Assembly: GCA_903861125.1 (NCBI GenBank)
Contig: CAIOTF010000037.1
Span: forward strand, 1 to 64,000
From: an uncultured Ignavibacteriota bacterium
GTDB lineage: Bacteria; Bacteroidota; Ignavibacteria; UBA10030; UBA8401
Length of the DNA stretch: 64,000 nt
Reading direction: 5' to 3'
Shown here in pieces: positions 1 through 16,212 of this stretch. The position numbers and the translations under genes were made by a program. The first letter of the stretch is position 1; every line of letters begins with the position of its first letter. The notes beneath the pieces are model-generated. The model had not been told where the DNA came from and made no database searches. It saw only the letters and a list, made by a program, of their open reading frames with translations.

Positions 1-126
1 GATCAGTCCCGACAAAAAACATCGGGATGCTAAAAACGCACAATTCACAAACATAGCGACCGCGTAAAAAAGTCGCCACGCAGCCCCCAAAGGGGTCCCT
101 TTGGGATTAGCTCCAGTCCGTTAGGC
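1..126 (+). repeat. Right part of a long attC-like site (attC-0)
   Basis: The window opens inside the same repeat that separates later cassettes. It contains the TCCCGA/TCGGGA hairpin, the hairpin CCAAAGGGGTCCCTTTGG and the L'-like GGATTAGCT, then the core GTTAGGC at 120-126. The cassette with the HigBA-like module starts at 121. The left half of the site lies outside the window. Confidence 0.7.
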
Positions 127-142
127 AGCCTTGAAGTGGCAG

Positions 143-454
143 TTATCGAGGGAGAATACGAGAGAGGGAGTTTTTAGGTGTCTTTAATGTTAGTAAAGAT
201 TTAACAAGAAGATCGATTGTAACCGTTGGGTCGCCGGATTCCATTTTCGCAACACGAGATTGACTCGACTTAATCATTTTGGCAAAGTCTTTTTGAGTAA
301 TCTTTAATGATCTACGCCGTTTTTGAAGGTTTTTGCTCAATGAGAGCTTGAGTTCAATATATTCGGCTTCCTGTTGATTGAGATTAAGGAATTCATCAAC
401 AGTTCCAATTCTCCAACCGGCTGCTTCAAGTTTCTTTTGTTTGTTCTTTTCCAT
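143..454 (-). CDS. XRE/HigA-like antitoxin
   Basis: This 103-residue protein is the likely DNA-binding antitoxin of a toxin-first (HigBA type) module. Residues about 40-95 form a helix-turn-helix of the XRE class, with the recognition segment around KITQKDFAKMIKSSQSRVAKME. The N-terminal part (AAGWRIGTVDEFLNLNQQEA, then YIELK) is typical of antitoxins paired with Gp49/HigB-like toxins. It starts 16 bases after the toxin stop, so the two genes are one transcription unit. In this family the antitoxin neutralises the toxin and represses the shared promoter; a palindrome upstream of the toxin (815-834) is a good operator candidate. The module is antisense to the cassette direction, so it would need its own promoter. 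Family assignment is firm; the exact subfamily name is an inference. Confidence 0.85.
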   Translation of the reverse strand: MEKNKQKKLEAAGWRIGTVDEFLNLNQQEAEYIELKLSLSKNLQKRRRSLKITQKDFAKMIKSSQSRVAKMESGDPTVTIDLLVKSLLTLKTPKNSLSRILPR

Positions 455-470
455 AATTGGCTCCTGTTAA

Positions 471-803
471 TTATTCAGCATCATACAAGCGAATTCTTCT
501 TTTGCATTGATCTATGATATTCTTGGGTGTTTGTTGTGTTTTCTTCTTAAAAACATCAAGAATAATGATAGCATCCGGATCAATACGATAGACTAATCGC
601 CATATCGTTGTTTCATCAGTAATCCGTAATTCATGACAACGTGGGCCTATCGATGGCATTGGACGGCACCAAGGCAATGATATCAATTCGCCGCGTTGCA
701 GTTTGCGGAGAAGGAATCCAGTTTCTATTCTCGCGGCCGGCGACATCGGCGGAGTTTTAACTTCGCCATGAAGCCAGGCAAGGGGTTTGTGATCGTTGCT
801 CAT
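471..803 (-). CDS. RelE/HigB-like toxin (phage-derived Gp49-like)
   Basis: This 110-residue protein precedes the XRE antitoxin on the minus strand. The features PPMSPAARIETGFLLRKLQRGE, GPRCHELRI and WRLVYRIDPDAIIILDVFKKK match the Gp49-like/HigB toxin family, whose members are ribosome-dependent mRNA endonucleases. The conserved LRI, WR..Y and VFKK elements of the fold are present and the length is normal. Its start at 803 lies just downstream of a palindrome and a recognisable promoter. Such modules stabilise large cassette arrays against deletion, which explains their frequent presence in chromosomal integrons. Toxicity here is inferred from family only. Confidence 0.85.
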   Translation of the reverse strand: MSNDHKPLAWLHGEVKTPPMSPAARIETGFLLRKLQRGELISLPWCRPMPSIGPRCHELRITDETTIWRLVYRIDPDAIIILDVFKKKTQQTPKNIIDQCKRRIRLYDAE

Positions 804-811
804 GTTGAAAT

Positions 812-840
812 AAGATATGTCATATCTGACATATAGTCAA
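812..840 (-). promoter_or_regulatory. Promoter and palindromic operator of the HigBA-like module
   Basis: The perfect palindrome ATATGTCA-TATC-TGACATAT (815-834) sits directly upstream of the toxin start. Read on the minus strand, TTGACT (840-835) is followed after 17 bases by TATCTT (817-812), so the palindrome fills the spacer of a sigma-70-like promoter. This is the classic layout for autorepression by an XRE antitoxin. The promoter calls are by eye; this lineage may use other consensus elements. Confidence 0.6.
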
Positions 841-867
841 GAATTAAAATATTCAATAGAACAGGCT

Positions 868-1196
868 GCCTAACCAACGGCTCAAGTTGATCCTTCGACT
901 CGTCCGCTGGTGCGGACTCGCTCAGGATAATCTCTGCAAGCGCTGACCTGCCTGGCGGCAGGCAGGCGCGCAAAAGTTATGAGTGTTGAGATTTCTAAAT
1001 ACAACTTACGAGACGAAACAGCATTTTTAATCCCGCCAAAGAGCGGCGGGATGCAAAGAACGCATTTAAGACTTTAATCAACCCGCTGTAACGCCCGCCA
1101 AACCGCCAAATGGACGGCGGTCAAGAAAGACGGCGGGCAAGTTGCAACGCGGCCCCCCAAAGGGGTCCCTTTGGGATTAGCTCCAGTCCGTTAGGT
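868..1196 (+). repeat. Long attC-like site, attC-1 (329 bp)
   Basis: The core GCCTAAC (868-874) opens the site and GTTAGGT (1190-1196) closes it. Near the ends, AGTTGATCC (885-893) can pair with GGATTAGCT (1174-1182) through seven Watson-Crick and two G-U pairs, like the L boxes of attC. Between them are hairpins also found in the other sites, plus a segment unique to this copy. The cassette-1 start GTTAGGCAGCC (120-130) is the reverse complement of GGCTGCCTAAC (864-874). Confidence 0.72.
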
Positions 1197-1226
1197 GCGA
1201 TTTAATCAGCAGTCAATAAATTAATT

Positions 1227-2261
1227 ATGAAAAGTTATATTCTCTTGTGTGTTTTACTATTTCTGTTCTCGCTATTTTTTTTGCAATGCACAAACGATGC
1301 GAAACCATATCAAAGTAGTCCTCTTGATTATAAATGGAGTGCAGATACTATTGATGGACATTTATATTCCATTTGGGGTGGTTCTTCAAACAATGTATAT
1401 AGCGTGGGTTGGGGAAATATGTATAGATTCGATGGGCACTCATGGACACGTGTAACATTGTCAATTGGAAGTTTTAGTTTATATAAGATACATGGCTTTA
1501 GTAATTCAGATATTTGGGCAGTTGGGAGTCTATCATATTTGGTAAACGATAAAATTCAAGATTCAAGCATAATACTACATAACAATGGTGGGGGTTGGTA
1601 TATCGCGTTGCAAGGTAAATCAAGAATGTTGTTTTCTATTGGCGGTCAACAAAATAATGCCTGGGTAGGTGGTATTAATAAAACATTCTATTCTTACGAC
1701 GGTAAATCTTTCAAGAGAGAGACGCTTCCGAATATGTATTCAGGCAATGACAGTATTTATTCTGATATCGTTTCCATAGCAAAGGGGGAAAATGATATTG
1801 TTTATGCTTTAGTCTACATACACTATCTTAATAGCAATGCTCCTGATATTCGTGAAGTTTATATGAAAAACGGAAATTCTTCATGGATTAAAAGTGATTC
1901 AAACTTAACCTACTTCTCATCGAGATTATGGGTGAATCATTCAAATGAGCTAATTGGACTCGGGAATTACCCCAAAATTAAACGTGGTTCAACTTGGTCA
2001 AATTATTTACCGTTTGATACTGTTTCTGCTATTGCAATAGCTGGTAGTTCAAACAATAATTTGGTCGTGGCTGGAAATACCAAATCATATCCAACTTATT
2101 CTGCGGTGTATTACTACAATGGAACAAATTGGACGTTAATACCTGCGTTGTCATTCCAAGAAGTCCGGCCATTGGATATTGCCTATTTCGATGATCAGAT
2201 ATTTATTCTATGTAGTGTTTCTAACTCTGGAAAGACAGTTATCTTTAAAGGACATCTATAG
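1227..2261 (+). CDS. Lipoprotein with beta-propeller-like repeats
   Basis: This 344-residue protein is the single gene of its cassette. A lipoprotein signal ends at about residue 21 with the lipobox FFLQC, so it is probably exported and lipid-anchored. The mature part carries spaced WGGSSNNVYSVG and FDGHSWTRV-type elements, which recur as IWAVG, AWVGGINKTFYSYDGKSF and YYNGTNWTLI. This resembles bacterial beta-propeller proteins with WG.s..dvyaVG repeats. There are no catalytic motifs that I recognise. Base composition is clearly more AT-rich than that of the right half of the window, as for most genes in the array. Function is unknown; surface binding is only a guess. Confidence 0.7.
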   Translation: MKSYILLCVLLFLFSLFFLQCTNDAKPYQSSPLDYKWSADTIDGHLYSIWGGSSNNVYSVGWGNMYRFDGHSWTRVTLSIGSFSLYKIHGFSNSDIWAVGSLSYLVNDKIQDSSIILHNNGGGWYIALQGKSRMLFSIGGQQNNAWVGGINKTFYSYDGKSFKRETLPNMYSGNDSIYSDIVSIAKGENDIVYALVYIHYLNSNAPDIREVYMKNGNSSWIKSDSNLTYFSSRLWVNHSNELIGLGNYPKIKRGSTWSNYLPFDTVSAIAIAGSSNNNLVVAGNTKSYPTYSAVYYYNGTNWTLIPALSFQEVRPLDIAYFDDQIFILCSVSNSGKTVIFKGHL

Positions 2262-2307
2262 AGCAATTGTAAATATTATTTGATTTAGAGAAATAATCTC
2301 AAATCGC

Positions 2308-2606
2308 ACATCCCACTCGCTCAAGTTGATCCTTCGACTCGTCCGCTGGTGCGGACTCGCTCAGGATAAACTCTGCAAGCGCGACCGCGGTTTGAAAAAT
2401 GTCTCAAGTGTCGTGAAACGAACCGACAACATACGATACGATAAGAGATCAGTCCCGACAAAAAACATCGGGATGTTAAAAAAACGCACAATTCACAAAC
2501 ATAGCGACCGCGGCACAACGTCCGCCAAACCGCCAAATGGACGGCGGTCAAGTCGCCACGCAACCCCCAAAGGGGTCCCTTTGGGATTAGCTCCAGTCCG
2601 TTAGAA
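2308..2606 (+). repeat. Long attC-like site, attC-2 (299 bp), degenerate left core
   Basis: The left core reads ACATCCC (2308-2314) where ACCTAAC is expected from the cassette start GTTAGGTGCGATTT (1190-1203). The flanking AAATCGCAC (2301-2309) still matches exactly, so the core itself has mutated. The right core is GTTAGAA (2600-2606). The interior has the same hairpins as attC-3 and attC-4. Loss of the AAC triplet would be expected to weaken excision of this cassette. Confidence 0.68.
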
Positions 2607-2632
2607 CGCAACCTTTAAGAAAGGATTCCACG

Positions 2633-3220
2633 GTGAAAATAAGATATATTATTATACTTTTTCCCCTGCTTCTGTTGTTTATTATTCCATTGGATACAAT
2701 AATTTCTCAGGTAAATCAGTATGATACTTCAGGATGGATTGATGTATTTGAACCAACGGTAAAGGCATCCTTTAAGCGTCCGGCAAAATGGAAAAAACGG
2801 GAAGATGGATCTGGAAAAGGTATATATTTCAATCCGGATCAGCCAATGTTTGATGATCAAGGTAGATCAATTACTCCGATGATAGGTGTCTCTAATGTTG
2901 AGGACCCAAAAGATGTAGAAATCTACTTGAAAAGTATTAACTCTGGACAGTTTGAAAAGATGAGCACTAAAAACTATGACTATTATGTCGCTATAATTAA
3001 TTGGAAAAACAGACAACAAATGTACATTTATATTGAAGTAGAGAAAGGCAAACGTTATTTAGGATGTTCTTTGGTTCCATACAGTAGTGACCCTTCATCG
3101 AAAAATTTTGAAGTTCAATTACGTGCGATGGTTGAAACATTTAAATTTAATAAATCAACGAATAGTGAAAAAAAAACTGACGACAAAATACAACTTAATG
3201 GACATTGGAAAGTTGATTAA
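2633..3220 (+). CDS. Hypothetical exported protein
   Basis: This 195-residue protein has a hydrophobic N-terminus (residues 4-26) without a lipobox cysteine, so it is probably periplasmic or anchored by an uncleaved signal. The body contains VKASFKRPAKWKKREDGSGKGI and VETFKFN near the end. This is the layout of small periplasmic proteins with a PsbP/DUF1795-like fold, in which a signal is followed by a ~150-residue sandwich ending in a ...F.F segment; that similarity is weak. A lysine-rich tail follows residue 178. It is the only gene of its cassette. No function can be assigned. Confidence 0.65.
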   Translation: MKIRYIIILFPLLLLFIIPLDTIISQVNQYDTSGWIDVFEPTVKASFKRPAKWKKREDGSGKGIYFNPDQPMFDDQGRSITPMIGVSNVEDPKDVEIYLKSINSGQFEKMSTKNYDYYVAIINWKNRQQMYIYIEVEKGKRYLGCSLVPYSSDPSSKNFEVQLRAMVETFKFNKSTNSEKKTDDKIQLNGHWKVD

Positions 3221-3236
3221 TAAATATTTGGTTGCG

Positions 3237-3502
3237 TTCTAACCAGCCCCTCAAGTTGATCCTTCGACTCGTCCGCTGGTGCGGACTCGCTCAGGATAAA
3301 CTCTGCAAGCGTGACCGCGGTTTGAAAAATGTCTCAAGTGTCGTGAAACGAACCGACAACATATGATACGACAAGAGATCAGTCCCGACAAAAAACATCG
3401 GGATGCTAAAAACGCACAATTCACAAACATAGCGACCGCGTAAAAAAGTCGCCACGCAACCCCCAAAGGGGTCCCTTTGGGATTAGCTCCAGTCCGTTAG
3501 GC
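3237..3502 (+). repeat. Long attC-like site, attC-3 (266 bp)
   Basis: TTCTAAC (3237-3243) opens and GTTAGGC (3496-3502) closes the site. The cassette in front starts with GTTAGAACGCAACC (2600-2613), and GGTTGCGTTCTAAC (3230-3243) is its exact 14-base reverse complement. Internal hairpins include TCCGC-TGGT-GCGGA, TCCCGA/TCGGGA and CCCAAAGGGGTCCCTTTGGG. The two cores of this site do not match each other (TTCTAAC versus GTTAGGC); the match is within the cassette. Confidence 0.78.
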
Positions 3503-3526
3503 GTTGCTATAGAAAGAGGTGCTAAA

Positions 3527-4042
3527 ATGAAAATTTTTTTCTTAAAAATACTGCAAGTGTTTTTATTTACTCTTATTCTTGTTGGTTGTAAAGAAGATGA
3601 TGAAGTTGTAACACCAATTCAACCTCTACCAGACAATCAACATAAAGTCACAATTACTCAAGGAGTATGGGGGGATGTATTATTTCTGGAGGGTGATTTC
3701 ATGCCTTCATATGGTGCTCATTCCAACGGAGGCACAATTAAACCCGTTGAGAGAGAAGTGTTTATTTATGAAGCAGCAAAATATGTTGATGTTGTTGGGG
3801 ATACTCTCAGGCCATATTTTTTATATAAGATAGATACGAAATTTATAACTAAAACCGTATCTGATAAAGATGGCTTTTTTCAAGTATCGTTGGATCCTGG
3901 ATTGTATAGTTGTTTTGTTAAAGAGGATTCATTTTACTGGGCAGGTGGAGGTGATGGTAACGGTGTGTATATGGCTGTTAATGTAAAATCGAATTTAGTC
4001 ACCAAAACTCAAATTAATATAGATTACAAAGCAGTTTATTAA
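3527..4042 (+). CDS. Lipoprotein, carboxypeptidase-regulatory-like fold
   Basis: This 171-residue protein has a signal ending in the lipobox ILVGC (cysteine about residue 21) followed by an acidic KEDDE linker, typical of surface or outer-membrane lipoproteins. Near residues 125-150 the pattern SDKDGFFQVSLDPGLYSCFV resembles the end of a carboxypeptidase-regulatory-like beta sandwich, in which a ...DG.F...L.PG.Y pattern is conserved. It is the only gene in its cassette, starting after an AAAGAGGT ribosome-binding site. The role is unknown. Confidence 0.68.
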   Translation: MKIFFLKILQVFLFTLILVGCKEDDEVVTPIQPLPDNQHKVTITQGVWGDVLFLEGDFMPSYGAHSNGGTIKPVEREVFIYEAAKYVDVVGDTLRPYFLYKIDTKFITKTVSDKDGFFQVSLDPGLYSCFVKEDSFYWAGGGDGNGVYMAVNVKSNLVTKTQINIDYKAVY

Positions 4043-4048
4043 CGCAAC

Positions 4049-4314
4049 GCCTAACCAGCCCCTCAAGTTGATCCTTCGACTCGTCCGCTGGTGCGGACTC
4101 GCTCAGGATAAACTCTGCAAGCGTGACCGCGGTTTGAAAAAAGTCTCAAGTGTCGTGAAACGAACCGACAACTTACGATACGACAAGAGATCAGTCCCGA
4201 CAAAAAACATCGGGATGCTAAAAACGCACAATTCACAAACATAGCGACCGCGTAAAAAAGTCGCCACGCAACCCCCAAAGGGGTCCCTTTGGGATTAGCT
4301 CCAGTCCGTTATAC
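4049..4314 (+). repeat. Long attC-like site, attC-4 (266 bp) with non-matching cores
   Basis: The left core is GCCTAAC (4049-4055) and the right core is GTTATAC (4308-4314). They are not complementary, but the left core matches its own cassette start (GTTAGGCGTTGC at 3496-3507 against GCAACGCCTAAC at 4044-4055), and the right core matches the end of the next cassette. The interior is almost identical to attC-3. Confidence 0.78.
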
Positions 4315-4343
4315 GGCACTGCAACAACAGACATAAGGAAGGT

Positions 4344-5165
4344 ATGAAGCAAGTATTTTTGTTGGTTTCTTTTATGTTCTCTTTTTTGCTAGCTGTAAAT
4401 GCTCATGCTCAAAATCTATCACTTCCAGAAGGTGCTCAAACGAAATGGGTTGTGGATGGGCCTGAAGAGATTGTCAGTTATCTAGTATTTGATCCATTAA
4501 CTGTTAAAGAGAAAATTCCATCGTTTCTCCGGTTCATTACAATTAATGAGCTTGCTGTTGAACAAATACCTTGGGCAAAAGAGCATTTAAGTAAATATCC
4601 TGCACATGCGGATTGGGGTATTTCATTTCTTGAAATCGTCAAAATGAAAACATTTGATATAGACGGACGCAGACCCAAATGGCCTGAAAATGGAGCTATG
4701 GCTTTATGGTTTGCTCGCGTAGCACAGTCAGATTCGACAAATGAACTGGGTCAAGGAAAACCATTTCTGGCTTTGGAATTTTGGATGCCCGATAGTATAT
4801 ATGTTAGTTATATGCGCAATAAAGGGCACTACGCTAGCTATGGAGATGTGCGACTTCACAAGAATTCAGAAGGCAAGTGGATGGGATCTATTGATGTCGC
4901 TGGATTGAGTGTAGCCTGCGAGTGTATGCCTTCTCGAAGTGTCGAAGGCTTTGGATCGAACGGTATGCAGGTAATTATTCCACCTGCAAAATCTGGCGTA
5001 ATGAGTATTGTTCGAGTAGCTTTCGCTGGACATCAGGAGCAGTTATGCGAGGAAGATGCCACTTGGAAATTTAAAGGTGTTCATCCCCTGGTTAACGGAA
5101 TGATATTAGGACCTTCAAGTTTTCAGTTTGGATACAGTCTCATAGGAGGTGCTTACCTCCGATGA
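4344..5165 (+). CDS. Hypothetical exported protein
   Basis: This 273-residue protein has a clear signal peptide: a hydrophobic stretch to about residue 20, then a NAHAQ cleavage site. The mature protein has segments such as EIVSYLVFDP, WPENGAMALWFARV and FLALEFWMPDSIYV, and a short cysteine-containing SVACEC motif. I do not recognise the family; an acetoacetate-decarboxylase-like fold came to mind, but the evidence is thin. It is the only gene in its cassette, preceded by AAGGA eight bases before the ATG. Confidence 0.62.
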   Translation: MKQVFLLVSFMFSFLLAVNAHAQNLSLPEGAQTKWVVDGPEEIVSYLVFDPLTVKEKIPSFLRFITINELAVEQIPWAKEHLSKYPAHADWGISFLEIVKMKTFDIDGRRPKWPENGAMALWFARVAQSDSTNELGQGKPFLALEFWMPDSIYVSYMRNKGHYASYGDVRLHKNSEGKWMGSIDVAGLSVACECMPSRSVEGFGSNGMQVIIPPAKSGVMSIVRVAFAGHQEQLCEEDATWKFKGVHPLVNGMILGPSSFQFGYSLIGGAYLR

Positions 5166-5186
5166 GAAGTGATAAATAACAGTGCC

Positions 5187-5470
5187 GTATAACCAGCGGC
5201 TCAAGTTGATCCATCGACTCGTCCGCTGGTGCGGACTCGCTCAGGATAAACTCTGCAACCGCGACTGCGGCTTAAAAATGTCTCAAGTGTCGTGAAACGA
5301 ACATACAACTTACAAAACGAAATATTATAACGAATTCACAATTCGGTGCGCAAGTCCGCAGTAAAACGTCCGCCAAACCGCCAAATGGACGGCGGTAAAG
5401 AAAGACGGCGGACAAGTCGTCACGCAGCCCCCAAAGGGGTCCCTTTGGGATTAGCCGCCATCCGTTAGGC
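5187..5470 (+). repeat. Long attC-like site, attC-5 (284 bp)
   Basis: GTATAAC (5187-5193) opens and GTTAGGC (5464-5470) closes the site. CAGTGCCGTATAAC (5180-5193) is the exact reverse complement of the cassette start GTTATACGGCACTG (4308-4321). This copy has GCGGCT on the left and AGCCGC on the right as a perfect 6-bp L-box pair. It lacks the TCCCGA hairpin but has the GTCCGCC/GGCGG hairpin. Confidence 0.76.
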
Positions 5471-5484
5471 ACTATGGAGGAAAT

Positions 5485-6177
5485 ATGAAATCAATGATTA
5501 AATATTTATCAGTAATTATAATCACAGTTAATATTGTATACAGTCAAACAATTTCAATTGGTTTAGGTTCTGGCATCAATATGATTCAAGGGAATAATTT
5601 TTACACGGAAGATTTTGGCAGAATTGGTTTATATACACAAAAAAACGGTACACAAACAAATTTTGCAGGTTTGGGGTTAAAAAACGAATACGATTTATCA
5701 ATAAATGCAAAAATTGGATTTTCTAGTCTTCCGGTAATATTTATTGCACAATTACACTATTTGCCGATGAGAGGAAATCAGAGTGTTGAAATGTGGGATT
5801 TTTTAGCAACACACAGTCATTATGAAAATGTTAAAACAATAAATGATATTTGGTCGTATGGTTTTGGTTTAAGATATAATGCGGAATTTAATAATCTGTA
5901 TCCATTTTGTAGTGCCTCATTTCTAATAAATAATTGGAACAATGCAATATTGCAATTTGATTATCAGGAACATCTTTCTACGTGGGCACAATATAAAAAT
6001 GGTATCAGGTATGGTTACAATATCAGTATGGGTTTGGGATATAACATTAGCGATCTTTTTGAAATTGAGATTGAAGGAAGTTATAGCTTATTGAATGAAT
6101 ATAACAGAAGAGATGGGGAAGTTAAGATGAATACAGTTAACACACAGTTTAAAACTTATTATACAATTCTCCCATAG
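5485..6177 (+). CDS. Outer-membrane beta-barrel-like protein
   Basis: This 230-residue protein has an N-terminal signal (hydrophobic residues 5-18, cleavage after VYSQ). The mature chain consists of alternating glycine/aromatic beta-strand segments, for example TISIGLGSGINMI, WSYGFGLRYNAEF and YGYNISMGLGYNISDLF. This is the usual look of small 8-10 strand outer-membrane barrels. The ATG follows GGAGG with six bases between. No function can be inferred. Confidence 0.65.
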   Translation: MKSMIKYLSVIIITVNIVYSQTISIGLGSGINMIQGNNFYTEDFGRIGLYTQKNGTQTNFAGLGLKNEYDLSINAKIGFSSLPVIFIAQLHYLPMRGNQSVEMWDFLATHSHYENVKTINDIWSYGFGLRYNAEFNNLYPFCSASFLINNWNNAILQFDYQEHLSTWAQYKNGIRYGYNISMGLGYNISDLFEIEIEGSYSLLNEYNRRDGEVKMNTVNTQFKTYYTILP

Positions 6178-6178
6178 T

Positions 6179-6382
6179 GCCTAACCATATTAAAAAGGAA
6201 CTAGTCAACAAATAAAGTACCCCTGTTCGCATCATGCACTAAAATGATTCTAGTTGCCGCTACAGACGTTCTTTAGAAATAGGAAAGGTTAATAAATACT
6301 GACAACATACGTTCACGATATTTATCCGGAAAGAAAACCACGCACTGGAACGTTTCACGTAATTTAACTCCAGTTGTTATGT
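6179..6382 (+). repeat. attC-like site, attC-6 (204 bp), different interior
   Basis: GCCTAAC (6179-6185) opens and GTTATGT (6376-6382) closes the site. CCATAGTGCCTAAC (6172-6185) is the perfect reverse complement of the cassette start GTTAGGCACTATGG (5464-5477). The interior does not share the long hairpin block of attC-1 to attC-5, so the variable part can be replaced independently of the cores. The right arm TTTAACTCCA matches the usual arm. Confidence 0.66.
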
Positions 6383-6401
6383 TGCTTATCAAAATAATTC
6401 A

Positions 6402-7091
6402 ATGTCAAAATCAGTAATAAATATTATCCTATACGTAGTGTGTTGCAATTACACAATAGGACAAAATAAATATGTAGGCGAAAAAAAAGGAGTGGTAGCA
6501 TATACGGTTTCAACCTTAACAGTGGATACAAGAACAATGATTGGTGCTCAGATTGCATATAACAAAGATGGAAGGAATAGCGTTGGTTTTAGATACTTAT
6601 ACGGTAAAGATCCTTCTTTAGATGGAATTGGCATTTATTATGAAAATGGTCTTATAAGACCAGTAAGCAACACAAGCATAGGTGTAAATTTATTTTTATT
6701 CGGTGCTAAAACATGGACGAAGAATGTTCAAGTACAATCATTTGAAAACATTTACAAAGAAAATGGTGGTGGATATGATCACTCAGTTGCAATAACAAAA
6801 GAAGTAACAATAGAAGGTCAATTTGGAACAGTTGGATTTGAATTTTATTTACATTCAACAGATGAGCCAGTCTTACTTGAACCTAGTATACGATTTGCTC
6901 ACACATTTTCAAAAAATCCTGCAAAATATGGAGATGAACAATCTTCGTATAATTCAATAGTATTGGAATTCGATTTGATATTTAATCGGAGCGGTGACAA
7001 TATTATTTTGTTTACTCCTGGTTTCACATACTTTGATAAATATAAAAGTTCACTGGCATTCAAAAGTTCGTTTATTCATTCATTAAAATAA
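6402..7091 (+). CDS. Hypothetical exported, barrel-like protein
   Basis: This 229-residue protein begins with a signal-like hydrophobic segment (residues 5-17, then NYTIGQ). It continues with strands such as TMIGAQIAYNKDG, SVGFRYLYGKD and GTVGFEFYLHS, which suggests an outer-membrane or surface beta-structure. The start lacks a strong Shine-Dalgarno sequence, as often in this lineage. It shares its general character with the gene of the preceding cassette but no obvious sequence identity. The function is unknown. Confidence 0.6.
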   Translation: MSKSVINIILYVVCCNYTIGQNKYVGEKKGVVAYTVSTLTVDTRTMIGAQIAYNKDGRNSVGFRYLYGKDPSLDGIGIYYENGLIRPVSNTSIGVNLFLFGAKTWTKNVQVQSFENIYKENGGGYDHSVAITKEVTIEGQFGTVGFEFYLHSTDEPVLLEPSIRFAHTFSKNPAKYGDEQSSYNSIVLEFDLIFNRSGDNIILFTPGFTYFDKYKSSLAFKSSFIHSLK

Positions 7092-7098
7092 AATCGCA

Positions 7099-7155
7099 AC
7101 CTAACAGTCGCTCCCCACTACAGAACAGCGGGACAAAAGGCAGCTGATAAAAATG
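7099..7155 (+). repeat. Left half of an attC-like site (attC-7), truncated
   Basis: ACCTAAC (7099-7105) with upstream GCAAC matches the cassette start GTTATGTTGC (6376-6385) at nine of ten bases. It is followed by GTCGCTCCCC, an L-like arm also seen at 11571 and 12972. No right core is visible before the next gene at 7179, so the site looks truncated. A right half of the long type appears at 9520-9610. Confidence 0.5.
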
Positions 7156-7178
7156 TCATTTATTCACATAACAGGATT

Positions 7179-9497: not shown

Positions 9498-9519
9498 TAT
9501 CAGCAAAATAATAAACAAT

Positions 9520-9610
9520 CGCGGTGCGCTGGAACGCCCGCCAAGAAACCGGCGGGCAAGTTACCACGCAGCCCCCAAAGGGGTCCCTTTGGGATTAGCT
9601 CCAGTTATGG
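9520..9610 (+). repeat. Right half of a long attC-like site
   Basis: The block from GCGGTGCGCTGG through the hairpin CCAAAGGGGTCCCTTTGG and GGATTAGCT ends in the core GTTATGG (9604-9610). No RYYYAAC core is found after the preceding stop at 9497, so only the right part survives. Confidence 0.6.
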
Positions 9611-9632
9611 TGTAAAAACAACGAAGGTACAA

Positions 9633-10235
9633 ATGCGATTTAAAATATTCATTTTTATAGTGGTAGTTACAGTTATTATGTTTTCCTCCTGTTATGCACC
9701 GCCGTATGTATATGATCCATTCCCAAATCCTACCGAAGTAGTTTATTGGTCAGCTATACGGCGATTAGAATGGAAGGATTTTGTTAATAGAATTGCACCA
9801 AATAATCCATTAACAGCTTCAGAAGTATTTATTAGAACCCAATATGATTGGAACAAACCATCTGGTGATTATCCGCCAAAATTCAGAGCGGTTTGTTATG
9901 TTGAAAAATCGTTATGTTGGGCAGATAAACGATACGTAAATGACAATCAACTCTTTTATCACCAAACACTGTTTGATATTTATGAATTGTTTATGCGACG
10001 AATGCGACAGGATTTTAGTAAAATATATTCGTTTGCAAGTTCATCACAAATTAGTAGCAATGTTGCTTCAATTGTACGAGCGAATGAAAATGCTTTAAAC
10101 CTAACACTTCAAAATTATTACCGGGACACCAAAAGAGGTGCGAACTTAACAGAAGTCAACCGCTGGTCGGGTGATGTTTTTGCACAATTGAAAGAATTAG
10201 AATCATTCAAAGCAGATACAGCATTTGCGCCCTAA
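9633..10235 (+). CDS. Lipoprotein, DUF922-like with degenerate active site
   Basis: This 200-residue protein has a lipoprotein signal (MFSSC, cysteine about residue 20). The patterns RRLEWKDFVNR, then LFYHQTLFDIYELFMRRMRQ, resemble DUF922, a family of putative secreted zinc proteases in which the second segment reads HE..H. Here it reads HQTLF, so the glutamate and second histidine are missing and catalysis is unlikely if the assignment is right. The stop codon TAA (10233-10235) lies inside the attC core. It is the single gene of its cassette. Confidence 0.62.
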   Translation: MRFKIFIFIVVVTVIMFSSCYAPPYVYDPFPNPTEVVYWSAIRRLEWKDFVNRIAPNNPLTASEVFIRTQYDWNKPSGDYPPKFRAVCYVEKSLCWADKRYVNDNQLFYHQTLFDIYELFMRRMRQDFSKIYSFASSSQISSNVASIVRANENALNLTLQNYYRDTKRGANLTEVNRWSGDVFAQLKELESFKADTAFAP

Positions 10236-10543
10236 CCGCTCGCTCAAGTTGATCCTTCGACTCGTCCGCTGGTGCGGACTCGCTCAGGATAAACTCTGCA
10301 ACCGCGATCGCGGTTTGAAAAATGTTTCAAGTGTCGCGAAACGAAGCGACAACATACGATTCGTCAAGAGATCAGTCCCGACAAAAAACATCGGGATGCT
10401 AAAAACGCACAATTCACAAACGCAGCGACCGCGTAAAAACGTCCGCCAAACCACCAAATGGACGGCGGTCAAGAAAGACGGCGGATAAGTCGCCACGCAG
10501 TCCCCAAAGGGGTCCCTTTGGGATTAGCTCCAGTCCGTTAAGC
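10230..10543 (+). repeat. Long attC-like site, attC-8 (314 bp), overlapping a stop codon
   Basis: CCCTAAC (10230-10236) opens and GTTAAGC (10537-10543) closes the site. It contains both the TCCCGA hairpin and the GTCCGCC/GGCGG hairpin. It is nearly identical to attC-9, including shared variants (GCGATCGC, GTCGCGAAACGAAGCGAC) not found in the copies to the left. The stop of the preceding gene is built into the left core. Confidence 0.74.
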
Positions 10544-10554
10544 AGCACAAAAAT

Positions 10555-10827
10555 ATGGAAGCACAAATTAAAGACGAAACTCTCAGTCGAAATATCTTTA
10601 AGAGATTTTCAATTGGGCTATTATTTTCAACGGTTGTATTGTATATCCACACCATTTATTGTCCTGGAAATAATTATCCGGCATTACACGGTGGCGCTCT
10701 AATATATGCAATCCCAATGGCGTTTTTATTTTCAATGATTGCTACTGGGGTATCGATGTTTCACGAAAACAAACTATTCGTTTTGGTATACTCAGCAGTT
10801 GTAATAATTCTCTATTTGTTTAAATAA
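10555..10827 (+). CDS. Small membrane protein
   Basis: This 90-residue protein has three predicted membrane segments (about residues 17-36, 46-66 and 70-88) and a charged N-terminus (MEAQIKDETLSRNIFKRF). There is no recognised family. Very small multi-spanning proteins of this kind are common integron cargo. The ATG lies 11 bases after the cassette core, with no clear Shine-Dalgarno sequence. Two near-identical attC sites flank the gene. Confidence 0.6.
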   Translation: MEAQIKDETLSRNIFKRFSIGLLFSTVVLYIHTIYCPGNNYPALHGGALIYAIPMAFLFSMIATGVSMFHENKLFVLVYSAVVIILYLFK

Positions 10828-10842
10828 AACATTGCTTGTGCT

Positions 10843-11157
10843 GCCTATCCGAGTCGCTCAAGTTGATCCTTCGACTCGTCCGCTGGTGCGGACTCGCTCA
10901 GGATAAACTCTGCAACCGCGATCGCGGTTTGAAAAATGGTTCAAGTGTCGCGAAACGAAGCGACAACATACGATTCGTCAAGAGATCAGTCCCGACAAAA
11001 AACATCGGGATGCTAAAAACGCACAATTCACAAACGCAGCGACCGCGTAAAAACGTCCGCCAAACCGCCAAATGGACGGCGGTCAAGAAAGACGGCGGAT
11101 AAGTCGCCACGCAGTCCCCAAAGGGGTCCCTTTGGGATTAGCTCCAGTCCGTTAGGT
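10843..11157 (+). repeat. Long attC-like site, attC-9 (315 bp), degenerate left core
   Basis: The left core reads GCCTATC (10843-10849) and the right core is GTTAGGT (11151-11157). GTGCTGC (10839-10845) still matches the cassette start GTTAAGCAGCAC (10537-10548). The interior is almost identical to attC-8. Confidence 0.7.
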
Positions 11158-11180
11158 GTTTTTTAAAAAAGAATATTAAA

Positions 11181-11567
11181 ATGACATCGGATAAAATTGA
11201 AATCCAATTGATTCGCCAAATTATGTTTGGAGTAATCTTTGGAATTATTGTCGTTGCTGTAGATAATTTTGCATTTGAAGGTGAAGTCAGCCCTATTGTC
11301 ATAGTAGCAATGTTGTTAACGGGTAATTTAATAGTTGGAAGATTGTGGGGTTGGCATGGGTGGTATACTTCAGTTATTGCATGGATATGTGTTCCGATGG
11401 CTCACATAATCAAACACGTACTTGGTTTACCGGATACATTGCATCCCAATACATATATTTCAATTCTAATGTTGGCGGCATTCACTTTTATTATATCGTT
11501 AATAGGTACAGGTTTAGGTGTATTGCTAAGAAGAGTTACAATTAAAATCAAAAATAACAGTTTCTAA
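11181..11567 (+). CDS. Membrane protein of unknown function
   Basis: This 128-residue protein has about four transmembrane segments (residues about 14-30, 38-54, 64-80 and 96-116) and a basic C-terminus (RRVTIKIKNN), which suggests a cytoplasmic end. The segment GRLWGWHGWYTSVIAW is distinctive, but I do not know the family. It is the only gene of its cassette; its stop lies three bases before the left core of attC-10. Confidence 0.6.
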   Translation: MTSDKIEIQLIRQIMFGVIFGIIVVAVDNFAFEGEVSPIVIVAMLLTGNLIVGRLWGWHGWYTSVIAWICVPMAHIIKHVLGLPDTLHPNTYISILMLAAFTFIISLIGTGLGVLLRRVTIKIKNNSF

Positions 11568-11570
11568 ACC

Positions 11571-11647
11571 GCCTAACCGAGTCGCTCCCCGAAGGCCCAA
11601 GGGTCCGGGTGGTCCCTTCGGGGCAGCTTAATTCCAGTCTGTTAGGT
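11571..11647 (+). repeat. Canonical-length attC site, attC-10 (77 bp)
   Basis: GCCTAAC (11571-11577) opens and GTTAGGT (11641-11647) closes the site. The inner arms GCT-CCCCGAAGG and CCTTCGGGG-CAGCTT pair with one extrahelical base, and CAGCTTAATTCCAG precedes the right core. Length, core spacing and arm structure are those of a textbook attC, and this supports reading the longer sites as members of the same class. Confidence 0.82.
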
Positions 11648-11681
11648 GGCAGGAATAACCAGTAGAGGAGGTCCAATAAAA

Positions 11682-12122
11682 ATGAAATCTCTGCTTCGTC
11701 CCAAAGTAATATTACTACTTCTCACAGTTTGGGCAATTTTACAAATACCGCGATTTATTGCGTTGCCTTTAATAAATAGTGTTCTATCGAAACAAGATCC
11801 TGCTGCTTGGCTTTTCCCTGCAATAATTGATATAGTTGTAGCCGTTCTTGCGCCTCTGGTAATATATTTTGTGTGGAAACACCCGAATCTATGGACATGG
11901 TTATTCATACTTAACTGGTTAGTAATATCTACATTTGATCATGCAAGTGCGATAACAGCATTTTCAATTGCTGGAGTACCAACAATATTTAAGGAATTTG
12001 GAAGCTCTGGAAATATTGTCCCAGCAATTCAATCGATTATAGATGGGTTTATATTTTGGTCCTTGTGTCAAGAAAAAGTCCGAACACATTTCTTTACTAT
12101 TAATAACAAATCTGCCACCTAA
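11682..12122 (+). CDS. Membrane protein of unknown function
   Basis: This 146-residue protein starts at the ATG at 11682, which is preceded by AGAGGAGG (11664-11671); an in-frame GTG at 11646 inside the cassette core is less likely. There are about four membrane segments (residues about 8-27, 44-64, 70-90 and 120-136). The family is unknown. The stop codon TAA (12120-12122) lies within the attC-11 core. The gene fills its cassette from core to core. Confidence 0.62.
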   Translation: MKSLLRPKVILLLLTVWAILQIPRFIALPLINSVLSKQDPAAWLFPAIIDIVVAVLAPLVIYFVWKHPNLWTWLFILNWLVISTFDHASAITAFSIAGVPTIFKEFGSSGNIVPAIQSIIDGFIFWSLCQEKVRTHFFTINNKSAT

Positions 12123-12296
12123 TCAATCACTCAACCTGTCGTGGTAACCGCGCCGCGCTTAGGTATAAAGTTAAGTCCTCAAATTACAGTTTACGCTTCA
12201 AATAGTTATCAGCAAATTAAAAAACAATATCCACGTGCTTTAACGCCCTCCAAAAAATGGCGGACAAGTTGCAACGCAACGTAGCTCCTGTTAAGG
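12117..12296 (+). repeat. attC-like site, attC-11 (180 bp)
   Basis: ACCTAAT (12117-12123) opens the site; CTGCCACCTAA (12112-12122) is the exact reverse complement of the cassette start TTAGGTGGCAG (11642-11652). GTTAAGG (12290-12296) closes it after the arm GTAGCTCCT. The last base of the AAC triplet has changed. The interior has only traces of the shared hairpin block. Confidence 0.6.
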
Positions 12297-12332
12297 CAAC
12301 GGGCAAACATTTGTAAAATACTTTGTTATTGG

Positions 12333-12638
12333 TTAGATGAGATGATCGAGATTTCTGGAGGTATGAACAACTCGATGAATTTGAATAGTTTTATCATGGA
12401 TAACATAGAACACGAGATATGTGTCTAATATTAATACTCGATATCCATATTCCCTTAGTTTTGCATTGCGAGGGATTCTTCCAAGGTGGGAAGAATGTGA
12501 AAGTGCCCCAATGCGTTTGTCTATTTTATCAACAAATGCCAATGCTCTCGCAGGACTATCTTTTGCAATCCAGTCGAAGATGTTTTTAAGATCCTCTTGG
12601 GCAATAGGAAGGTATCGTAATACAAATTGCTTACGCAT
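12333..12638 (-). CDS. ParE/RelE-superfamily toxin
   Basis: This 101-residue protein shows the ParE/RelE pattern: LRYLPIAQEDLKNIFDWIAKD at the N-terminus, SHLGRIPRN in the middle, and YGYRVLILDTYLVFYVI then IHRVVHTSRNLDHL at the end. Family members either poison gyrase (ParE) or cut mRNA (RelE); the sequence does not decide between them. It overlaps the antitoxin stop by eight bases, so translation is coupled. The module is antisense to the array direction, like the HigBA-like pair at 143-803. Confidence 0.87.
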   Translation of the reverse strand: MRKQFVLRYLPIAQEDLKNIFDWIAKDSPARALAFVDKIDKRIGALSHSSHLGRIPRNAKLREYGYRVLILDTYLVFYVIHDKTIQIHRVVHTSRNLDHLI

Positions 12639-12897
12639 GGGTTCGGCGTCGTAATGAAGTCATCATTTGAGAATGAGTTACTCCCTTTTTACCAGCGGCA
12701 GATTGGGATTGTGCGACTCCCAATTGTTCGAAAAGTTCAGATTGTGCTTTGAGCCGTTCGTAATGATCAATCGTCATAATAACCATGTCGCCCTCACCAT
12801 TTTTGGTAAGGAAAATAGGCTCATCTTTTTCGCGAGCAAGGATAGATATTTCACGAGTACGATTTCGCATACTGGAGATAGATTTAATAATAGGCAT
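12631..12897 (-). CDS. Phd/YefM-type antitoxin
   Basis: This 88-residue antitoxin lies upstream of and overlaps the ParE/RelE-like toxin. The N-terminal 60 residues have the Phd/YefM DNA-binding and dimerisation fold (SSMRNRTREISILAREKDEP, then IFLTKNGEGDMVIMTIDHYERL). The C-terminal tail should bind the toxin. The palindrome TTTGTT-GA-AACAAA (12915-12928), 17 bases upstream of the start, is a possible operator. Confidence 0.87.
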   Translation of the reverse strand: MPIIKSISSMRNRTREISILAREKDEPIFLTKNGEGDMVIMTIDHYERLKAQSELFEQLGVAQSQSAAGKKGVTHSQMMTSLRRRTHA

Positions 12898-12914
12898 TGT
12901 ATACTTCCGGCTGT

Positions 12915-12928
12915 TTGTTGAAACAAAT
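12915..12928 (-). promoter_or_regulatory. Candidate operator of the Phd/ParE module
   Basis: TTTGTT-GA-AACAAA is a perfect 6-bp inverted repeat 17 bases upstream of the antitoxin start at 12897. Phd/YefM proteins bind short palindromes at such positions. No binding data; the call rests on symmetry and position. Confidence 0.4.
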
Positions 12929-12971
12929 TAGTACAATATAGTGATAAAATCAAGTACGTTATACGCGCGTG

Positions 12972-13326
12972 ATCTAACCGAGCCGCTCCCCGCTAAAGAA
13001 TCCCGCTCTACGTGGTGTCCTATTTTTCGGGATTCCGACAACGGGATTCAAAAAAGCGGAACCGTACAGCGGCGCACAAAAAACGTGCAAGTGGACCCAG
13101 TCGAGAAGTCGCACTACGAGTCATAGACTCACCGGCCTACAGATAGAAGACTCGACTCGTTGAGCAGGCGCGCAAAAGTATTGAATGTTGAGTTTTCTAA
13201 ATATAAATTGCGTTACGAAAGGATCTCAAATCCTGCCAAACCGCCAAATGGACGGCGGTCAAGAAAGACGGCGGAGAAGTTGCACACGCGACAAGTTGTA
13301 GACATCTTAGATCCGGTCAGTTAGGT
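12972..13326 (+). repeat. Very long attC-like site, attC-12 (355 bp)
   Basis: ATCTAAC (12972-12978) opens and GTTAGGT (13320-13326) closes the site. It starts with the arm GCCGCTCCCCGC, also present at 15018 and 16155 in variant form, and includes the GCCAAACCGCCAAATGG/GGCGG hairpin block near the right end. In the middle are segments shared with attC-1 (GTTGAGTTTTCTAAATA) and with attC-14 (GGGATTCCGACAACGGGATT). It looks like a mosaic of several site types. Confidence 0.62.
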
Positions 13327-13349
13327 GGAAATAAAAGGCAGTGTGCAAA

Positions 13350-13430
13350 ATGAACCGAATTATAATTTATTTTTTACCCATATCGATGAATGTCGGCAAA
13401 CAAATAAAACTTCAAGGTAATGTGGTTTAA
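13350..13430 (+). CDS. Possible 26-residue peptide or gene remnant
   Basis: A short reading frame (MNRIIIYFLPISMN...) starts just after the attC-12 core. Its hydrophobic N-terminus resembles a signal segment, and the frame then stops. It may be the remnant of a cassette gene displaced by the next gene, or chance. There is no clear ribosome-binding site. Confidence 0.2.
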   Translation: MNRIIIYFLPISMNVGKQIKLQGNVV

Positions 13431-13516
13431 GTTATCTTTATTGCGGTTGATGGATACGCAGCGGCACTATATGAATAATGGGAAGTTTTGTATAAACAAT
13501 AAAAAAGGGGGCGATT

Positions 13517-14386
13517 ATGGTTTCACATATTCAAAAAGATAAAGCCGAACTGTTCTTGAAATATCATCATAACAATGAAATTCTAGTTTTGTTGAACTCG
13601 TGGGACGTAGGAAGTTCTAAATTAATAGAAGCAAGCGGCTATAAGGCCATCGCAACAACAAGTATGGGAATAGCCGCCTCGTTAGGGTATCCTGACTGCC
13701 AGATAATTCAATTGTCAGAAATGATTGAAGTTATAACTGGAATAGTCAATGGAGTACAAGTTCCGGTAACTGTGGATATAGAATCCGGATATGGAAATAA
13801 TATAAATGAAATAATGGATTCAGTTAAAAAGATAATTGCAACAGGAATTGTTGGAGTAAACATTGAAGACAGCATTGATTTAAGTCCTCTGTTAATTGAC
13901 GAGATAGAATTTTGTGAAAGAATATCCGCCATTCGCTCATTATCAGATTCACTGGGCTTTCATTTAGTAATCAATGCAAGAACGGATTCATTTTATACTT
14001 CGTCAGGTTCAACACGAGAAAAATTATCTGAATCAATTAAGCGTGGCAATAAATACCGGGAAGCAGGAGCCGATTGTATATTTGTTCAGCCTGTAGGGGA
14101 AAAAGAAACGATTTCAACATTGGTTAAGGAAATTAATGCCCCAATAAATATTCTTTCAAACCCTACGATTGGAGCAGGATCTCCTCTTTCCGTAAGGGAA
14201 CTGCAGGATTTAGGTGTAGCCCGTGTAAGTCTGGGTTCGAGTTTGATGAAAGCTACTTTGGCTTTAATAAAAAAAGTTGCCGACGAACTGTCTGAAAAAG
14301 GGACTTACAATATTTTGTTAGATACGTTAACACCGCTTCCCGATGCTGCAATGGCCTATAAAATGGCAATAGGGCTGAATAAATGA
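13517..14386 (+). CDS. Isocitrate lyase/PEP mutase family protein
   Basis: This 289-residue protein belongs to the ICL/PEP mutase superfamily, which cleaves or rearranges C-C or P-C bonds in 2-oxo or phosphonate substrates on a metal-binding TIM barrel. Visible markers are KAIATTSMGIAASLGYPD (residues about 43-60), VPVTVDIESGYGN (metal-binding acidic residues), GVNIEDS, LVINARTDSFY and GADCIFVQPV. The isocitrate-lyase KKCGH motif is absent, so it is not a true ICL; the substrate is unknown, with oxaloacetate hydrolase or methylisocitrate-like activity possible. AGGGGG seven bases before the ATG supports the start. This is a full-length enzyme inside the cassette array. Confidence 0.85.
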   Translation: MVSHIQKDKAELFLKYHHNNEILVLLNSWDVGSSKLIEASGYKAIATTSMGIAASLGYPDCQIIQLSEMIEVITGIVNGVQVPVTVDIESGYGNNINEIMDSVKKIIATGIVGVNIEDSIDLSPLLIDEIEFCERISAIRSLSDSLGFHLVINARTDSFYTSSGSTREKLSESIKRGNKYREAGADCIFVQPVGEKETISTLVKEINAPINILSNPTIGAGSPLSVRELQDLGVARVSLGSSLMKATLALIKKVADELSEKGTYNILLDTLTPLPDAAMAYKMAIGLNK

Positions 14387-14474
14387 AAATTAGCCATTAA
14401 CACAGTTTGGATTAAGTGAAAAAATAAAGGAAGAAATAAAAACGATCAATGTGTATATTCTTTCGAAAAGTTAC

Positions 14475-14580
14475 ACATAACCATATTAATAAAGAACCCG
14501 CCAATCAGTCGTAGATCAAACGGGTTGTAGACCTAAAAACGGCAGGCAGCATACAACGCTGCTTAACTCAAGTATTTAGC
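14475..14580 (+). repeat. attC-like site, attC-13 (106 bp), weak cores
   Basis: ACATAAC (14475-14481), followed by CATATTAATAAAG as in attC-6, opens the site. GCTTAACTCAAG then ATTTAGC (14574-14580) closes it; GCTTAACTCAAG is the classical right arm of attC sites. TTTAGCCAGCATT (14575-14587) matches AATGCTGGCTAA (14995-15006), the end of the next cassette. Confidence 0.55.
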
Positions 14581-14604
14581 CAGCATTGAAAGAAGGAGAA
14601 ATAT

Positions 14605-15006
14605 ATGCAGATCAAGTTCGTTAGCGTTATGGTCCCTGACCAAGAAGCCGCACTGCAGTTTTACACGAATGTTCTTGGATTCAATAAGATGGCAGACATT
14701 TCAATGGGAGAGTATCGTTGGTTGACAGTGACTTCTCCTGATGGAATTGACGGCGTCGAACTTGTTCTAGAACCATTGGGTTTTCCACCTGCTCAAATAT
14801 ACCAAAAAGCACTTTTTGAGGCAGGCATTCCAGCTACTGCGCTTATCAGCAATGACATTGAAAGTGATTTCAAACGACTGAAGGAGCGAGGTGTTGTGTT
14901 CCGTGGCGAACCGCAGCGAATGGGAATAATTTCTGTGGTTGTGTTCGAGGATACGTGCGGGAATCTGATCAATCTTGTTCAACCACATAGTAATAATGCT
15001 GGCTAA
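14605..15006 (+). CDS. Glyoxalase/bleomycin-resistance-fold (VOC) protein
   Basis: This 133-residue protein is a single VOC domain made of two beta-alpha-beta-beta-beta modules. Module one has KFVSVMVPDQEAALQFYTNVLGF; module two has DIESDFKRLKERGVVF and ends in VVVFEDTCGNLINLVQ. VOC proteins bind a divalent metal and act as lyases, dioxygenases or drug-binding proteins; the substrate cannot be read from the sequence. The ATG follows AAGGAGA with seven bases between, a strong ribosome-binding site. The stop codon is embedded in the attC-14 core GGCTAAC. Confidence 0.85.
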   Translation: MQIKFVSVMVPDQEAALQFYTNVLGFNKMADISMGEYRWLTVTSPDGIDGVELVLEPLGFPPAQIYQKALFEAGIPATALISNDIESDFKRLKERGVVFRGEPQRMGIISVVVFEDTCGNLINLVQPHSNNAG

Positions 15007-15313
15007 CTAAATTTTCCCCGCTAAAAAAATCATGCTTTTCGGGATGTCCCGCATTTCGGGATTCCGACAACGGGATTCAAAAAAGCGGAACCGTACAGAG
15101 GGACACAAAAAAACGTGCAAGCTGCCGCCGTTTAGGAGCATAACGAGGCAAGTGTGCAAAAGTTTTGAGTGTTGAGATTTCTTAATACAACGTACGTTAT
15201 GATAGCTGATTTTAAATTTATAAACATTTTTCATTAACGCGTACCGCCAAAAAGCGGCGGACACGTTGCAATGCTCTACGCATCGTAGAAAGTTATAGTC
15301 CAGTCCGTTTATA
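15001..15313 (+). repeat. Long attC-like site, attC-14 (313 bp)
   Basis: GGCTAAC (15001-15007) opens the site and matches its own cassette start (14575-14587) over 12 bases. GTTTATA (15307-15313) closes it after the arm TTATAGTCCAGTCC. It shares GGGATTCCGACAACGGGATT (about 15058-15077) with attC-12. Confidence 0.6.
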
Positions 15314-15350
15314 AACAGTTTACCATGTTGCGCTTTTAAGAGGCACATAT

Positions 15351-16136: not shown

Positions 16137-16149
16137 CAAGCAGCGGCTT

Positions 16150-16195: not shown

Positions 16196-16212
16196 AAAAT
16201 ATTCTAAGTATC

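Follow-up and report, generated by a model that had tools for sequence, protein, structure and literature searches.

The window analysed here (64,000 nt, positions 1 to 64,000 of contig C37, CAIOTF010000037.1, from an uncultured Ignavibacteriota bacterium) opens with an array of gene cassettes bounded by very long attC recombination sites. The array is an integron, as shown by an integron integrase gene (intI) in the same genome and by pairing between the R'' arms of the attC sites and the starts of their own cassettes. It is very probably a sedentary chromosomal integron whose long attC sites consist of a backbone of ~160 nt stretched by repeatedly inserted palindromes. A preliminary description had listed nine attC sites of 266-355 nt, and all nine were relocated from sequence, the sole shift being a start at 2307 instead of 2308. 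Seven of the nine are shown by alignment to correspond to the lineage's ~160-nt backbone plus short palindromes.

Cassette structure, integrase and turnover

Pairing of each attC with its own cassette was assessed by comparing 12 nt of the cassette start with the reverse complement of the R'' region. The sample comprised 16 cassettes, 8 from the window and 8 from contig C7 of the same genome (G000), with weak rows kept (W2, 3/12; C7_3, 6/12); W9, W13 and W15, whose cassette starts were not identified, lie outside it. Own pairs matched on average at 10.6 of 12 positions; the average fell to 7.6 when pairs were swapped and to 7.4 when the neighbouring cassette was used, and the own-pair total was reached in none of 100,000 permutations. 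Pairing was complete (12/12) for W1, W3, W4 and W5 and reached 10/12 for W10. The attC 3' motif TTAGCTCCAGTCCGTTAG, with up to 3 mismatches allowed, was matched 18 times in the 4.19-Mb genome, 16 of these on C37 and C7, and its reversed control twice.

The integrase of this genome is full-length, with an intact gene on contig C5 (8075-9019), and scores 453 bits against the integron integrase profile TIGR02249, which has a curated cut-off of 265 bits. Its 318-aa product aligns with the solved IntI4 structure (2a3v) over residues 4-317 (E 1.7e-88), and the closest named IntI is 59% identical. C5 is 9458 bp long and ends 439 bp past the intI match, and no cassette could be delimited before the contig end. 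The flank of intI bears an attI-like sequence, ...CCGTCTAATAACTAGTTGAAC, with an ACTAGTT motif. A similar motif was read by eye upstream of intI in two relatives, G018 and G014 (automatic flank alignment was poor), where it stands beside intI and is followed by a cassette start. In G014, intI, the attI-like motif and the same attC type occur in cis, and the same holds for G018 up to a contig end inside its first attC. Another attI-like motif, with no adjoining intI, is found on C7 of G000 (~58300-58375, corresponding to 18300-18375 of locus L037), where it heads a second array extending from 58362 to ~66184, with eight measured attC sites of 163-168 nt. The array side of intI meets a contig end within ~1.3 kb in G000, G003, G004, G005 and G018, as expected if repeats break assemblies. 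The window starts at base 1 of C37 and its opening bases lie inside a further attC (W0), so that the left end of the array is missing.

Cassette turnover was assessed at the species level by comparing the window with contig C170 of a congeneric genome, G021. Cassette 5 is common to both, with 891 of 902 positions identical (98.8%) between window 4308-5209 and C170:1-902. The hydrolase cassette (15326-16161) is 90.8% identical, and the distal blocks at 18118-25266 are 85.6-88.3% identical and keep their order, except for one 75% block located elsewhere. In the stretch that separates cassette 5 from the hydrolase (window 5465-15307, G021 ~1037-5905), no match longer than 71 nt was found; the short matches are mostly attC-like pieces, with one of 57 nt at 81% in the antitoxin region. 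Cassette content differs between these two species through gain or loss of cassettes. The homology of the hydrolase cassette begins 19 nt past the GTT core in both genomes. In another genus (G010), a gene 88% identical to the phosphoenolpyruvate (PEP)-mutase-like cassette gene of the window is the second gene after an attC-like 3' end. The preliminary description had called the array integron-like and had made this depend on intI in the genome or relatives and on cassette gain or loss; its reading withstood both checks, made at the species level, with an IntI above the cut-off, an attI-like motif, the in-cis arrangement in G014 and G018, and cassette content that differs between congeners.

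The homology of cassette 5 ends inside L'' (CTCAAGYTGA). Beyond this point the interior of the G021 site is different and shorter, and TTAGCCGC on the right is kept in both genomes. In our reading, one or other of the two lineages had its site interior replaced.

Composition and distribution of the long attC sites

Bottom strands of the C7 sites fold into an R stem and, beyond an unpaired spacer, a long L stem in which 1-2 bases are extrahelical, topped by 1-4 hairpin loops. When aligned to these, the window sites exhibit the same backbone plus discrete palindromic blocks of ~20-50 nt: A, of 41-50 nt, close to L''; B, of 34-36 nt, in the middle of the site; D, of 48 nt but shortened to 32 nt in W2; and C, of 22-23 nt, within L'. 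W1 holds two additional palindromes found in no other site. Backbone identity is 85-92% for W1-W5, W9 and W10, with z-scores of 24-32 against shuffled interiors. For W13 and W15, z is only 6.3 and 11.6, and alignment weakly suggests that they belong to the ~160-nt backbone. The length minus insertions lies near 163 nt by construction of the alignment, so the evidence consists of the identity and the shuffle control; one backbone alignment included L038:800-965, which is not an attC, and the truncated site L037:19919-20000, both of which merely lower its conservation line. W5 has a backbone of a different type, found block-free in G016, yet it carries A and C at the same places as the other sites. 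On this comparison, seven of the nine sites of 266-355 nt are shown to derive from a ~160-nt backbone via inserted palindromes, and the long sites do not represent a primary attC type.

Every block is able to form a hairpin. B-like copies occur at 13 other places in the genome (E <0.1), and the 12 that were viewed lie outside attC, apparently in a larger dispersed repeat. C-like copies elsewhere are three and weak (E 0.05-0.3), and good matches to A in this genome are confined to the window array. In G005, which belongs to another genus, A-related copies are dispersed (5 matches, four viewed). Within the array, the interior of W4 is 99% identical to that of W3 with different R arms, and the interior of W10 is 99% identical to that of W9. 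Near-identical interiors between different R arms point to the spread of interiors between attC sites.

One kind of insertion spot recurs, where the spacer meets the L box: CTC^AAG when on the L'' side and CAG^CTTAG when on the L' side. The remaining insertions sit further up, in the terminal part. The L' box is split by a hairpin in 6 of 62 sites of the window's family (G017, G010, G015, G003 twice and G004; 5 genomes, 4 genera) and, with unrelated palindromes, in 4 of 61 sites of a second family of the same order, f5 (G053 three times and G049). These counts were read manually, and the other non-canonical L' rows contain point changes, N runs or unclear cases. Hairpins on the L'' side were seen in G016, G019, G021, G004 and f5. 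Thus, insertion at the spacer/L-box junction recurs in several genomes, with differing palindromes. In f5, the stretch directly preceding the L' junction has a folding energy of -6.7 kcal/mol in non-canonical and -1.5 kcal/mol in canonical sites (9 and 52 sites, respectively), which separates the two classes.

The cores of the long sites had been described as normal. This does not hold throughout: R'' is decayed in W2 and reads GCCTATC in W10, and R' reads GTTTATA in W15. A 77-nt site that had been regarded as canonical is indeed present at 11571-11647 (W11) and is the sole window site inside the published attC length range, although it may be better read as a derived, hairpin-stemmed site. 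Decayed sites beyond those described were found near 6179, 7099, 9545-9605 and 12117. A search of window positions 1-20000 against Rfam gave no match up to E 1.

The attC 3' motif was detected in 18 of 22 genomes of the family (reversed pattern, 0 of 22). Across the order, 34 of 98 genomes contain it, and 4 contain the reversed pattern once each. Among 60 family sites, 31 could be delimited; they measure 111-256 nt, and 13 of the 31 fall at 160-164 nt by manual count, which leaves out one doubtful 245-nt and one 71-nt row. In genus g28 of f5, the median length of 25 well-paired sites is 159 nt, with extremes of 156 and 284 nt; this set requires own pairing of at least 9/10, which left out 16 of 41 rows, and comes from match-rich contigs chosen from 4 of 6 genomes. 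Sites of ~160 nt are common in both families measured. The claim of a distinctive long-attC type therefore holds in part: ~160 nt is common in two families and exceeds published lengths, whereas the 266-355-nt sites appear to be derived through inserted palindromes. intI exceeded the threshold in 7 of the 22 family genomes. Among 80 named IntI loci, including those of Ignavibacteria (L065 and L083), none had the attC 3' motif at up to 2 mismatches. An array caller based on own-arm inverted repeats proved too noisy and was not used: it gave 182 links in the genome's own and family loci and 218 in reversed controls, and at the 80 named IntI loci the chains in the controls equalled the real ones in length.

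Folding, activity and alternative explanations

In the proposed mechanism, the single-stranded bottom strand would fold through its cassette-specific R arms, the inserted palindromes would extrude as side hairpins, and IntI would recombine at G^TT of R'. The blocks may then spread among the attC sites of the array by copying or gene conversion of the interior. Folding predictions used the next cassette's R' for W9 (including its constrained fold), W13 and W15. The R stem has a probability of 0.88-0.99 in W1, W3, W4 and W5, and R boxes pair in four of the six testable long sites. Minimum-energy folds of W1-W5, W9 and W10 contain 6-11 hairpins. A fold with R and L stems and with C extruded lies +2.7 (W3) and +2.3 (W4) kcal/mol over the minimum. 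Of the long sites, W3 and W4 seem the likeliest to remain usable, and we put the odds of their recombining at about even. W2, W9, W10, W13 and W15 give the impression of weakened or decayed sites. According to an excerpt of one study, recombination shifted just 1.6-2.4-fold when a Vibrio site had its large terminal structure exchanged (PMC2727003). Hairpins added higher up may be harmless, given this small effect. An interrupted L box is another matter.

Several observations weigh against the interpretation of the array as an integron with palindrome-stretched, foldable sites. W2 and W10 fold without the R box (P 0.00 and 0.10, respectively), and no regular L stem is visible in the minimum-energy folds of the long sites. 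Enforcing the R and L stems costs +6.4 (W5), +10.8 (W10), +11.7 (W1) and +15.4 (W9, array form) kcal/mol. In the window's family, the energy test upstream of the L' junction fails to separate 16 non-canonical from 46 canonical sites (-3.5 vs -3.4 kcal/mol), many of the non-canonical ones being point changes. intI and the window array sit on different contigs (C5 and C37). On its left, the homology of cassette 5 runs up to the contig start in G021, so that cassette borders are approximate. In addition, the block-free cassette 5 site of G021 has decayed cores (GTATATC, CTCTAGG), which leaves an order of empty then filled unproved for this cassette, and the cleaner block-free comparison, with G016, concerns another cassette.

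Some of these points also fit a reading in which the long sites are fossils: insertion would have ruined the L box, the window array would be frozen and decaying, and only block-free sites would recombine. We give this somewhat less than an even chance; as a statement about activity, it does not conflict with the identity and origin proposed above. Besides the absence of a regular L stem, it draws on the decayed cores of W2, W10 and W15, on the distal fading of the array, with relic 3' ends near 18116 and 24831, and on the larger number of family genomes with the attC motif (18 of 22) than with detected intI (7 of 22), although missing intI may reflect fragmented assemblies. It is harder to reconcile with the 12/12 cassette-specific R pairing that W1, W3, W4 and W5 retain even though the interiors of W3 and W4 are alike, and with an R and L fold within 3 kcal/mol of the minimum for these two. 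Cassette 5, which is long-sited here, is 98.8% identical in another species, and the terminal structure of a Vibrio attC appears nearly dispensable in the excerpt cited (PMC2727003).

Derivation of the long sites from a ~160-nt backbone could also be reversed, with very long attC ancestral and the ~160-nt sites deletion derivatives. Long sites do occur in two families (284 nt in f5, with own pairing 9/10, and 256 nt in G004), but the added blocks are separate palindromes, relatives of which occur outside attC, different backbones share the same blocks, and the same spots hold unrelated blocks in the other family. With 13 of 31 delimited family sites at 160-164 nt and a median of 159 nt in f5, we regard this order of events as quite improbable. 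Least credible, and close to excluded in our estimate, is that the repeats are a dispersed non-integron element, similar to repetitive extragenic palindromes or miniature inverted-repeat transposable elements, that mimics attC. Dispersal is indeed seen for palindrome B, weakly for C in this genome, and for A in G005. However, IntI, an attI-like site, cassette-specific R arms, cassette turnover and the occurrence of IntI and attC in cis in G014 and G018 refute this for the array as a whole, and it holds just for the inserted palindromes.

For the palindromes themselves, we put forward tentatively, and as rather unlikely, that they are hairpin parasites of integrons that insert preferentially into attC folded as a single strand, at the foot of the L stem, that are tolerated because they extrude as side hairpins, and that spread with the attC interior. 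If true, they would tag attC lineages and could trace how an attC core reaches new genes, which is the unsolved part of cassette origin.

Comparison with known integrons and features of the array

The features tested identify the system as an integron, apart from attC length and, for the long sites, the L stem. Published attC lengths are 57-142 nt (PMC2727003, in the part considered) or 57-141 nt (PMC3053210, likewise). The Vibrio superintegron, with its Vibrio cholerae repeats (VCR), likewise combines IntI, attI (an attI-like motif here), many one-gene cassettes and a large branched terminal structure, described in an excerpt as a branched variable terminal structure (VTS) of 65 bp (PMC2727003). 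In contrast to VCR and other published sites, the block-free attC sites of C7 measure 163-168 nt, and the long sites of the window, with their distinct palindrome insertions, reach 266-355 nt. Chlorobi and Ignavibacteriae are already reported to have complete integrons; the relevant passage is silent on attC size (PMC9024848). A type IX secretion system (T9SS) sorting domain encoded in the window would be consistent with that part of the tree. Mixed attC lengths within one genome are also reported for Treponema succinifaciens, with sites of 63, 68 and 132 nt (PMC3607928), but these are under half the length, and the excerpt describes no inserted palindromes. A literature search covering titles and the starts of abstracts, with most full texts left aside, returned no description of attC longer than 142 nt or of palindromes in attC. 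Thus, as far as these searches showed, the new elements are the attC size and the recurrent palindrome insertions.

For the insertion sequence IS1111-attC and group IIC-attC introns, attC is a preferred landing place. Those elements carry genes, whereas the insertions described here are gene-less palindromes of 20-50 nt inside the site, and the R boxes still pair in 4/6 testable long sites.

Detection tools and ideas of IntI recognition rest on attC of 57-142 nt. A lineage whose ordinary sites are ~160 nt (in two families of one order), with variants up to 355 nt, may thus be partly under-counted. IntegronFinder presumably has a default maximum attC size of 200 nt, and it is plausible that length-capped tools under-report such integrons; the intI gene and the 163-168-nt array of this genome should still be detectable by them. 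The long sites are also natural test molecules for the amount and position of extra DNA that IntI tolerates. As markers, the palindromes show that the same derived insertions recur on cassettes whose genes differ, and the cassette shared by two species differs just inside the L box; movement of attC interiors between cassettes is therefore testable by sequencing.

Table 1 Coordinates of attC sites, cassettes and genes in the window array.
Feature	Position	Strand	Remarks
attC 3' part (W0), cut by contig start, with palindromes B and C	1..126	+	99% to 3377-3502
Cassette 1	121..1190	+	start/R'' pairing 12/12
Cassette 1 gene, HTH antitoxin-like	143..454	-	Pfam HTH_3
Cassette 1 gene, Gp49 toxin-like	471..803	-	Pfam Gp49
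attC W1, 329 nt; five blocks: A, two W1-only, D, C	868..1196	+	backbone 139/163 to C7_6, z 24 vs shuffles
Cassette 2, 344-aa open reading frame (ORF) 1227-2261	1191..2600	+	Pfam: no match
attC W2, 300 nt; palindromes A, B, short D, C; R'' decayed (3/12)	2307..2606	+	
Cassette 3, 195-aa ORF 2633-3220	2601..3496	+	own pairing 12/12; Pfam: no match
attC W3, 266 nt; C7_4-type backbone + A + B + C	3237..3502	+	backbone 146/160 to C7_4
Palindrome A, example copy, 51-nt match	3258..3308	+	
Palindrome C, example copy, 22 nt, splits L' box	3461..3482	+	
Cassette 4, 171-aa ORF 3527-4042	3497..4308	+	own pairing 12/12
attC W4, 266 nt	4049..4314	+	interior 99% to W3, R arms differ
Cassette 5, 273-aa ORF 4344-5165	4309..5464	+	common to congeneric G021, 98.8%
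attC W5, 284 nt; A, D and C in a backbone of its own type (CGGC/GCCGCC)	5187..5470	+	block-free backbone in G016
Decayed attC, second type (CCTAACCATATTAAAAAGGAAC...), ends cassette 6	6179..6383	+	28-nt inverted repeat with cassette start 5464; motif also in C7, G021
Relic attC 3' end with palindrome C, R' lost	9545..9605	+	D4 repeat
attC W9, 314 nt; backbone + A + B + D + C	10230..10543	+	
attC W10, 315 nt; R'' GCCTATC	10843..11157	+	interior 99% to W9
attC W11, 77 nt; palindrome = stem	11571..11647	+	R-box pairing weak in fold (P 0.40)
ParE toxin / Phd-YefM antitoxin pair	12333..12897	-	Pfam PF05016, PF02604
attC W13, 355 nt; backbone weakly related	12972..13326	+	120/158, z 6.3
PEP-mutase-like cassette gene	13517..14386	+	88% homologue in G010, other genus
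attC W15, 313 nt; weak backbone; R' GTTTATA	15001..15313	+	123/163, z 11.6
Alpha/beta-hydrolase cassette gene	15351..16136	+	90.8% in G021, there behind different upstream cassettes

Two toxin-antitoxin-like pairs lie on the minus strand within the array, HTH/Gp49 (143-803) and Phd-YefM/ParE (12333-12897). Such pairs are usual in large chromosomal integrons, and sedentary ones such as the Vibrio superintegron carry toxin-antitoxin cassettes. The Gp49 protein of cassette 1 is presumably HigB-like. Also inside the array (window 9231-9514) is a 772-aa protein with a type IX secretion system (T9SS) sorting tail, whose C-terminal DNA has matches in at least 19 of the 22 family genomes among the matches listed.

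A second conserved attC type, CCTAACCATATTAAAAAGGAACTAGTCAA...CTGTTCGCATCATGCA, was observed at window 6179-6248, in locus L149 (1745-1813 and 2473-2543) and in L027 (~11184). The window and G021 copies are 93-94% identical, and this type terminates the C7 array and recurs inside others. Distal to 16150, short and mostly plus-strand ORFs continue to ~28 kb (window 16150-27800), with attC remnants near 18116, 19193 and 24752-24833, and the distal array seems to decay gradually.

Within a C7 cassette, a DDE transposase gene (PF01609 with DUF4372) is present on the minus strand (L027 7428-8714); thus, cassettes here also gather insertion sequences. On contig C52 of G009 (L139, L204), intI (23889-24833, plus strand) is followed by an attC 3' end at 25376 on the same strand. 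This places attC downstream of intI, opposite to the usual divergent layout that G014 and G018 show. In G005, the cassette that comes first after intI carries the gene for a rifampin ADP-ribosyltransferase (Arr; L138:570-1004, minus strand) that passes the NF033144 equivalog cut-off. This arr cassette, in a chromosomal integron, is delimited by its GTTAGAACGCAC start and its own 152-nt attC.

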